NCBI RefSeq assembly: GCF_964059025.1
Contig: NZ_OZ060376.1
Span: 378,467 to 442,466, forward strand
Reading direction: 5' to 3'
From: Buchnera aphidicola (Myzocallis carpini)
Lineage (GTDB): Bacteria > Pseudomonadota > Gammaproteobacteria > Enterobacterales > Enterobacteriaceae
Length of the DNA: 64,000 nt
This document shows, piece by piece, positions 42,927-45,197 of this stretch. How positions within the stretch are numbered: the stretch's first letter is position 1; the number at the start of each line of letters is the position of its first letter. The position numbers were made by a program, and so were the translations under genes. Under the pieces are notes generated by a model that was not told where the DNA came from, made no database searches, and saw nothing but the letters and a program-made list of their open reading frames with translations.

Positions 42927-44573
42927 TTAATTCATTGAATTTTTAAAAGTATTATAGAAATGTATTAATCCTTGAGTAGAAACATCATTTTTATAATTTT
43001 TCCCACCATGTAAACCTTGAAAAATATTATTAGATATTACTTTTCCGAGTTCTACACCCCATTGATCAAAACTAAAAATATTTAAAATAACACCCTGTAC
43101 AAAAATTTTATGTTCATACAAAGCAATTAGCGAACCTAATGAGTAAGGATCAATAATTTTAAATAAAATAGAATTACTAGGACGATTTCCTTCAAAATAT
43201 TTAAATTTTTCAGAAAAATGATTTACGTCATGATCACAAGAAGTATTTTCACCATTATTATTAAAATATTTTCCAAAAGCTAAAGCATGAGTTTGCGCAA
43301 AAAAATTAGATAATAATATTTTATGGTGATTTTCTATAGGATTATGTGATATTGTTGATGCAATAAAATCACATGGAATAAGTTTTGTTCCTTGATGTAT
43401 TAATTGATAAAAAGAATGTTGCCCATTTGTTCCTACTTCTCCCCATGTAATAGAACCTGTTTGCCAACACACTTTATCTCCATTACGATCAATATTTTTC
43501 CCATTTGACTCCATATTACATTGTTGAATATATGAAGGAAATCGATATAAATATTGGTCATAAGGTAAAATTGCTTCTGTTTGAGTATTAAAAAAATTAT
43601 TATACCAAATTCCTATTAATGACAATAATACTGGAATATTTTTTTCAAAACTGGCATGCTTAAAATGTATATCCATATCATATGCTCCATGTAAAAAATT
43701 ACAAAAATTATTAAAACCAATGGAAAGCATAATTGATAAACCCATAGCAGACCATAACGAATAACGACCACCAACCCAATCCCATAATTCAAAAATGTTA
43801 TTTTGTTCAATACCAAACTTTAAAGCTTCCTGAACATTCGCTGTAACAGCAAAAAAATGATGTTTCATATCTTTGAGGTTACAATATTTTTTTAAAAAAT
43901 AATTTTTAATTGTTGTAGCATTTGTAATTGTCTCTTCTGTAGTGAAATTCTTTGAAGATACTAAAAATATTGTAGAAGAGAAATCACAATTTTTTAATAT
44001 ACTATATACATCAGTACTATCAATATTGGATACATAAGAAATCTTTAAATGATTTTTATAAGGTTTTAATGCTTCAGTCACCATCCTTGGACCTAAATCC
44101 GAACCACCAATACCAATATTTACAACATGAGTAATTTTTTTTCCTGAATATCCTCTCCAAACTCCAGAGATAATACTTTTTGAAAAGTGTTTCATTTTAT
44201 TTAATACAGCACGTATCTTTGGCATAATATCAATGTTATTCACTAAAATAGGTTCATGAGAAAAATTTCTAAGAGCTGTATGTAATACTGGACGATTTTC
44301 AGTAACATTAATATGTTTTCCATTAAACATATCTTGAATAGATTGTGATAATTGCATTTCTTCAGATAATCTTAATAAAATCTGAATAGTTTCATCGGTA
44401 ATTCTATTTTTAGAAAAATCAATCAACATATTACTTTTAAAAACATAAGAAAAATTTTTAAAACGATTATGGTTATATTTAAATAAATCAACTAAATGAA
44501 TATTTTTCATTTTATTAAAATGTATTCTTAATTCTTTCCAGGCATTTGTAGTAATTGGTGAAATACTTTTCAT
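42927..44573 (-). CDS. pgi: Glucose-6-phosphate isomerase
   Basis: Interconverts glucose 6-phosphate and fructose 6-phosphate. 548 residues (549). Family signatures: VVNIGIGGSDLGPRMVTEAL, SKNFTTEETITNA, the PGI motif with the catalytic Glu in GEVGTNGQHSFYQLIHQGT, His in that block, and the C-terminal Lys in GVELGK. Divergent from ibpA and 7 nt upstream of miaA. Confidence 0.97.
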   Translation of the reverse strand: MKSISPITTNAWKELRIHFNKMKNIHLVDLFKYNHNRFKNFSYVFKSNMLIDFSKNRITDETIQILLRLSEEMQLSQSIQDMFNGKHINVTENRPVLHTALRNFSHEPILVNNIDIMPKIRAVLNKMKHFSKSIISGVWRGYSGKKITHVVNIGIGGSDLGPRMVTEALKPYKNHLKISYVSNIDSTDVYSILKNCDFSSTIFLVSSKNFTTEETITNATTIKNYFLKKYCNLKDMKHHFFAVTANVQEALKFGIEQNNIFELWDWVGGRYSLWSAMGLSIMLSIGFNNFCNFLHGAYDMDIHFKHASFEKNIPVLLSLIGIWYNNFFNTQTEAILPYDQYLYRFPSYIQQCNMESNGKNIDRNGDKVCWQTGSITWGEVGTNGQHSFYQLIHQGTKLIPCDFIASTISHNPIENHHKILLSNFFAQTHALAFGKYFNNNGENTSCDHDVNHFSEKFKYFEGNRPSNSILFKIIDPYSLGSLIALYEHKIFVQGVILNIFSFDQWGVELGKVISNNIFQGLHGGKNYKNDVSTQGLIHFYNTFKNSMN

Positions 44574-44636
44574 AATGATACTCCTTGTAATCTTGAATGA
44601 AATATATTATACTAATTATAAAATATAAATAATTAA

Positions 44637-44664
44637 CTTGAAAAAAAAATATTCATCCTCATAT
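44637..44664 (+). promoter_or_regulatory. Sigma-32 heat-shock promoter of ibpA
   Basis: CTTGAAA (44637-44643, a perfect -35), 13-nt spacer, CCTCATAT (44657-44664, matching CCCCATNT at all but one defined base). The spacing fits the sigma-32 range. The predicted start is about 70 nt before the ibpA ATG. A run of nine A (44641-44649) spans the end of the -35 and the start of the spacer, so slippage would change spacing directly. Confidence 0.75.
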
Positions 44665-44741
44665 TATTTATTAAAATCAAAGATTTTCAAGATTATAAAC
44701 ATAAATTGCAATTCTTTATTTTATAACTGAGGAAATTCATT

Positions 44742-45197
44742 ATGATTTATCATTCAATGTCTTTTTCACCAAAATTGACAGATAATTTATTTTCAGAACG
44801 ATTAAATCAAATTGATAAAATATTTAGTACTTTAACAGGGGAAAAAAAGTTATCTAATATTCCTGAATATAATATTATAAAAATGAATGGTAACCAGTAC
44901 CAATTAGAAATAACAGTTCCAGGTTTTGAAGAAAAAGAATTAGAAATATCTATTGAAAATAAAAAATTAATCATTACAGGAAAATATCAAAAAGATAATA
45001 ATATACAAAACGAAAACAAAAATATTAAATATTTACATCAAGGAATCAAAAACAAAAATTTCTCTATTCATTTTGATATTTATAATCCTATTCAAATTAA
45101 TAAAGCAACATTAAAATTAGGTATTTTAATCATACAATTTGAATATGAAATTCCTAAAAATCAAAAAATACAAAAAATAAATATAGAAAAAGAATAA
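44742..45197 (+). CDS. ibpA: Small heat shock protein IbpA (Hsp20 family)
   Basis: ATP-independent holdase that binds unfolding proteins. 151 residues (E. coli IbpA 137). The alpha-crystallin domain spans about 45-140 with YNIIKMNGNQYQLEITVPGFEEKELEISIE and KLIITGKY; N-terminal phenylalanine motif SMSFSPKLTDNLFSERLNQID. The canonical GVL-type segment near the end is diverged (LKLGILIIQFEYEIP). GAGGAA ribosome-binding site. The AU-rich 5' leader might fold as a thermometer, but no ROSE motif is evident. Confidence 0.94.
   Translation: MIYHSMSFSPKLTDNLFSERLNQIDKIFSTLTGEKKLSNIPEYNIIKMNGNQYQLEITVPGFEEKELEISIENKKLIITGKYQKDNNIQNENKNIKYLHQGIKNKNFSIHFDIYNPIQINKATLKLGILIIQFEYEIPKNQKIQKINIEKE

Follow-up and report, generated by a model that had tools for sequence, protein, structure and literature searches.

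The ibpA promoter of Buchnera aphidicola (Myzocallis carpini): a conserved sigma-32 site of probably constrained spacing whose A run is a likely mutational weak point

In Buchnera aphidicola from Myzocallis carpini, ibpA is preceded by a sigma-32 site, CTTGAAA-N13-CCTCATAT, whose boxes and spacing are conserved across Buchnera, and the same genome encodes an intact rpoH. It is highly probable that this site is a conserved heat-inducible RpoH promoter in which the distance between the two boxes is constrained, and that the A run in its spacer represents a mutational weak point rather than a demonstrated adaptive switch. By analogy with the pea aphid system, ibpA in this lineage would be induced by heat and slippage in the run would affect that induction. 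The stretch of DNA analysed (the window) forms the final 64,000 bases of a genome (G000) assembled as a single contig of 442,466 bases.

Both the boxes and the nine-A run were found exactly where the original prediction had placed them, with a single exact match to CTTGAAA-N13-CCTCATAT in the window, at 44637-44664 on the forward strand (Table 1). CCTCATAT ends 77 bp upstream of the ibpA start at 44742, and a family search identifies the gene product as HSP20 (PF00011, 48.6 bits). The RpoH consensus, as given in an excerpt of PMC6699477, consists of CTTGAAA and CCCCATNT separated by 11-15 bases; the window site agrees in 7/7 and 6/7 specified bases, respectively, with a spacer of 13. This corresponds to a score of 14/15 (N scored as match), for which 0.1 sites are expected per 64 kb (first-order Markov, both strands, spacers 12-15, 20 simulated windows). 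When three mismatches are allowed, the window contains four matches (three of them with three mismatches each), not above the shuffled mean of 4.63. The stricter pattern TTGAAA-N12-15-CCYNATNT matches once in the whole genome, at the ibpA promoter, with no match for the backward control; across 11 genomes of the genus it yields 17 matches, eight of them upstream of ibpA, compared to 7 in the control. The score and this single genome-wide match bear out the description of the site as a strong sigma-32 promoter.

Table 1 Features of the ibpA promoter region in window coordinates
Feature	Position	Strand	Evidence
-35 box CTTGAAA, sigma-32 promoter	44637..44643	+	7/7 to consensus; CTTGAAA in 9/9 ibpA-bearing genomes of the genus, including G000
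A9 run, spanning the end of the -35 box (three bases) and the start of the spacer (six bases)	44641..44649	+	length 3-11 across 9 genus genomes
13-base spacer	44644..44656	+	unambiguous spacing at the window's site
-10 box CCTCATAT	44657..44664	+	6/7 specified bases of CCCCATNT; same box on Buchnera plasmid pBPS1
sigma-70-like TTGAAA-N18-TATTAT, overlapping, status uncertain	44638..44667	+	10/12 consensus bases
Shine-Dalgarno-like TGAGGA	44728..44733	+	direct reading of sequence
ibpA, small heat-shock protein, 151 aa	44742..45197	+	ORF; HSP20 family; relatives found
ORF taken to be pgi from recognition of its protein, divergent neighbour upstream	42927..44573	-	ORF; syntenic matches

Absence of rpoH had been named beforehand as evidence against the promoter; the gene is present in G000, scoring 354.1 bits against a family cut-off of 323.1, with an uninterrupted reading frame. 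It lies above this cut-off in 10 of the 11 genus genomes, with G009 below it at 295 bits. A broken rpoH in G009 was considered and rejected, as the single TAA is C-terminal, where the frame ends. A 41-row DnaK tree places G000 within a 33-row clade (98/97 support) and, inside it, within an 11-row group with genomes of 412-453 kb.

We compared 50 Buchnera ibpA upstream regions: nine from the window's genus, 32 from the genus g73 and nine from four other genera. The region from G100 contains no site and was dropped, leaving 49. The search had found ibpA in 9 of 11 genomes of the window's genus (G002 and G007 had no match) and in 33 of 36 genomes of g73, one of the 33 being a pseudogene with nine stops. 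With ties resolved towards 13-14, 43 regions score best with a spacer of 13, six with 14 and none with 12. Spacing is unambiguous in 30/49 regions, including that of the window, with 13 in 25 and 14 in five. In the remaining 19 the -35 box gives an equal score at a second spacing, which is 12 in ten of them. All ten belong to g73 and have a weak -10 box, CCTTACTA or CCCTACTA; they are counted as lacking a 12-base spacer because the register at 13 follows the CCT common to their relatives. The 14-base spacers occur in G003, G010, G308, G309 and G329, all unambiguous, and in G173, where the site is weak. The ibpA coding region of G309 is 91% identical to that of G302, which has a spacer of 13, and the G309 spacer is, as read from this comparison, a recent plus-one change.

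Both boxes are recognisable in 9/9 genus genomes with ibpA, and the CC that opens the -10 box is retained in all nine. The -35 box begins with C in 9/9 of the genus compared to 3/32 of g73, and the mean site score is 13.4 versus 11.4; of the two, it is hence the window's lineage that has kept the better sigma-32 site. The distance from the -10 box to the ATG ranges from 54 to 112. Among 327 pairs drawn from 30 of the 32 g73 loci (ibpA coding DNA >80% identical), 48 differ in the assigned spacer and 318 in the -10-to-ATG distance, a contrast that depends on the alignment and is not a test, since the pairs overlap and are not independent. Runs of at least seven kept their length in 223/278 cases inside the promoter versus 174/402 outside across the same overlapping pairs. 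For the 19 pairs >90% identical, run length is kept in 10/15 inside versus 6/17 outside and the spacer differs in 3/19, so that at this closeness the contrast is weak. The alignment across Buchnera proposed with the original prediction thus shows the boxes and the 13-14 spacing to be kept, whereas the A run itself varies.

Counted from TTG onward, the run ranges from 0 to 14 A in the 49 regions, with A11 the commonest length (18/49). It reaches at least seven A in 37/49 regions and in 7/9 of the genus, where the individual lengths are 9, 7, 9, 3, 9, 8, 9, 4 and 11. The A3 and A4 runs belong to G004 and G009, sisters in the DnaK tree (100/97 support). Within g73, A11 is found in 17/32 regions and a run of eight or fewer in 12/32. 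The A9 run is unremarkable as such, since the window contains 98 A9/T9 matches, overlapping ones counted; it is the position within the promoter that is unusual. The promoter copy is the only one of 13 CTTGAAA in the window to have A9, the other 12 having A5 at most, and two of 130 TTGAAA are associated with A9. Six leading A's in the window spacer have P ~0.016 given the spacer composition. The mean number of leading A's is 4.67 in the genus compared to 1.78 for permuted spacers (largest of 2000, 4.11), and 6.34 compared to 3.97 in g73, by a permutation test that is generous as the rows are related. Because the leading A's exceed the prediction from composition, the run may be more than AT bias.

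Outside Buchnera, 48 rows were assembled, 32 of 80 loci from one search and 16 from another. A clear site is present in 24, with a spacer of 13 in 20 and of 14 in four; the other 24 rows have no clear site by the same measure. The clear sites carry A2-A6, with A4 in 16/24. Three of the 24 are repeats, and the 21 distinct sequences give 13 in 18, 14 in three and A4 in 13. Since the 13-14 spacing extends outside Buchnera with A2-A6 only, the spacing seems older than Buchnera, while the long A run looks like a derived Buchnera elaboration. In the Wigglesworthia plasmid locus L055 a ten-T run occupies the homologous 13-base spacer upstream of an HSP20 gene, an independent homopolymer in the same place. 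Locus L042 (3,450 bases, from G190), which surrounds a relative of ibpA, contains 261 G+C bases (~8%, no N) and still has CTTGAAA-N13-CCGCATAT with a mixed spacer. A search of E. coli genomes returned no similar DNA.

Other heat-shock genes of the genus have weaker sites: those of groES and dnaK are missed by the strict sigma-32 pattern. For groES a spacer of 14 ranked first in 8/11 genomes, 12 in two and none in one, with frequent ties between 12 and 14; the A runs are A2-A5, often followed by T runs, the exceptions being G006, with A8, and G009, which has no clear site. The dnaK sites (CTTGAT) have A-rich spacers of 13 in 9/11 and 14 in 2/11. Save for A8 in G006 groES, neither gene has A runs as long as those of ibpA. 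No convincing sigma-32 site was found within 300 bases of the grpE family match in the genus, a weak negative as the match starts off the start codon; a grpE sigma-32 site is reported in Aphidinae in the part of PMC3164680 available to us. Control through the ibpA leader was also considered. ROSE and fourU are families of RNA thermometers. Covariance models run over 44560-44860 to E 5 returned only two matches, to other families, on the minus strand and below cut-offs, and the leader fold has a z of -0.69. An RNA thermometer was hence rejected, there being no such family and an ordinary fold.

The gene has moved, and in places has been lost. ibpA follows pgi in 8/9 genus loci, the ninth having miaA in that place and no match to pgi, and is flanked by hslU and fpr in 30/30 g73 loci examined; a passage in PMC11188193 likewise describes its position as variable among aphid subfamilies. 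Published A. pisum ibpA primers match in full none of 37 g73, g120 and g110 loci. On plasmid pBPS1 (NC_004843.1) both boxes are identical to those of the window, with a spacer of 13. HSP20 genes are also carried by Nipponaphis pLeu (NZ_AP019380.1) and Formosaphis pTrp (NZ_CP135048.1), where the best upstream sites are weak at 12/15 (spacer 14) and 11/15, respectively. Within 250 bases upstream of the G317 ibpA pseudogene no site scores above 9/15. Given the shared boxes on pBPS1 and the disappearance of the site at this pseudogene, promoter and gene travel mostly as one unit. ibpA is dispensable in G002 and G007, as both are without a match, and its absence from G002 looks like loss because the sister genome G003 has the gene. 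The corresponding pgi-rpmE intervals (L231 in G002, L232 in G007) contain, as read by eye, a tRNA-like sequence, with an additional ORF in that of G002. Many insect-symbiont plasmids (Arsenophonus, Wigglesworthia, Riesia, Sodalis, Erwinia haradaeae) are among the best 40 of 484 plasmid records, and Pantoea symbionts are also among the relatives of the window's ibpA. The window's gene looks like symbiont-plasmid HSP20 and is perhaps not an ortholog of E. coli ibpA.

We propose that RNA polymerase with RpoH would read CTTGAAA and CCTCATAT held 13 bases apart, and that selection would act mainly on this distance. The A run would then be a product of A/T-ward mutation and slippage in a spacer that is rather free in other respects. 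As the run starts within the -35 box and continues beyond it, a one-base slip would leave that box intact and alter only the spacing. Loss of one base would be expected to abolish induction, by extension from data obtained by others in the pea aphid, and gain of one base appears to be tolerated, because 14-base spacers occur in several species. Slips would tend to be purged by selection over species time. The species data appear to fit this asymmetry between a harmful minus-one and a tolerable plus-one change.

The original prediction went further, envisaging that this lineage carries a slippage switch comparable to that of the pea aphid. The homology of the tracts stands: A9 occupies the position at which, in passages of PMC8466206, a deletion turns the 13-bp pea-aphid spacer into one of 12. 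In stronger form, the A run would be a maintained contingency locus, kept since slippage toggles ibpA between inducible and non-inducible states used by host populations; a reversible switch of this type would require the run to vary in length within populations. Such a locus would agree with a homologous tract that slips with a phenotype (PMC8466206, in part), with the prevalence of runs of at least seven A in Buchnera and in the genus, with the leading A's above composition and with the five unambiguous 14-base spacers, which show that length does change. We nevertheless judge it quite unlikely, as a 12-base spacer is assigned to no region (10/49 tie with 12), the run falls to A3 and A4 in the sisters G004 and G009 and to eight or fewer in 12/32 g73 regions, and the 12-bp allele is, in the same excerpt of PMC8466206, absent from 129 field pea aphids. 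The run is moreover Buchnera-wide, and with A9 the window falls short of the commonest length, A11. A thermal switch in this lineage is possible as an accident rather than as a demonstrated adaptation. The excess of leading A's over permuted spacers in both genera, together with the A-rich dnaK spacers, could instead reflect a selected A-tract, i.e. a working promoter part that aids the RpoH holoenzyme through DNA curvature or bending. This is unlikely, given that the groES sites in these genomes carry A2-A5 (with the two exceptions above), that the non-Buchnera relatives have mixed spacers and that the run has nearly gone in G004 and G009.

A different reading makes the promoter mainly a sigma-70 one (TTGAAA-N18-TATTAT), with ibpA constitutive. 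The overlapping site at 44638-44667 matches 10/12 bases, the 741-base region contains 21 sigma-70-like matches compared to 10.5 in shuffles, and a 5/6 hexamer lies 16-18 bases from TTGAAA in 7/9 genus genomes. However, about ten such matches are expected by chance in 741 bases, and such matches arise from the sigma-32 -10 box through its own AT end, the two not being separable. As the leading CC of the -10 box is kept in 9/9 genus genomes, we consider this reading most improbable. TTGAAA is common to both arrangements, 13 bases from the sigma-32 -10 box and 18 from TATTAT, and 17 bases is the best sigma-70 spacing. Loss of one A would thus give 12 (a poor sigma-32 spacing) and 17, so that slippage might swap sigma factors and render ibpA constitutive rather than off; we regard such a swap as very improbable. 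The favoured explanation therefore remains an RpoH promoter of constrained spacing with a run prone to slip. It suggests that the 13 (sometimes 14) spacing is an old constraint common to Buchnera, the loss of which makes pea aphids heat-sensitive, and one that would have survived relocations of ibpA involving different chromosomal positions and at least one plasmid. On this view the pea-aphid mutation would be an accident at a shared weak spot, and slips of plus one are predicted to be tolerated but those of minus one not.

The closest known system is the ibpA promoter of pea-aphid Buchnera, on which Dunbar et al. 2007 is reportedly the primary paper, contrasting a 13-bp wild type with a 12-bp mutant. 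Excerpts from the literature describe ibpA as heat-induced in Buchnera of A. pisum and S. graminum (PMC1440324), the one-base deletion from 13 to 12 bp as causing heat sensitivity (PMC8466206) and the tract as a 'homopolymeric track' (PMC4357604); a review-like passage of PMC12617022 words it to the contrary, the aphid mutation being said to raise ibpA expression. As far as these excerpts describe it, the pea-aphid promoter resembles that of the window in gene, sigma-32 type and 13-base spacer with homopolymer. In the window, A9 stands at the 5' end of a spacer of 13, and the gene downstream is an ibpA relative (HSP20 match) in a genome placed within Buchnera by the DnaK tree. The two differ in run length, A9 in the window compared to a commonest A11 in g73 (no genome among those compared being identified as that of the pea aphid itself), in location, with the window ibpA between pgi and rpmE-hslVU rather than hslU and fpr as in g73, and in the first -35 base, which is uniformly C in the window's genus and seldom so in g73. 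The plasmid HSP20 genes of Buchnera belong to the same family as the window's ibpA, but the window copy is chromosomal. An RpoH site upstream of ibpA is reported as conserved in four Aphidinae Buchnera in the accessible part of Degnan et al. 2011 (PMC3164680), and in this conserved sigma-32 site before ibpA the two cases are alike. Our comparison widens theirs, taking in 49 regions and the genus of the window, and the same kind of element is found.
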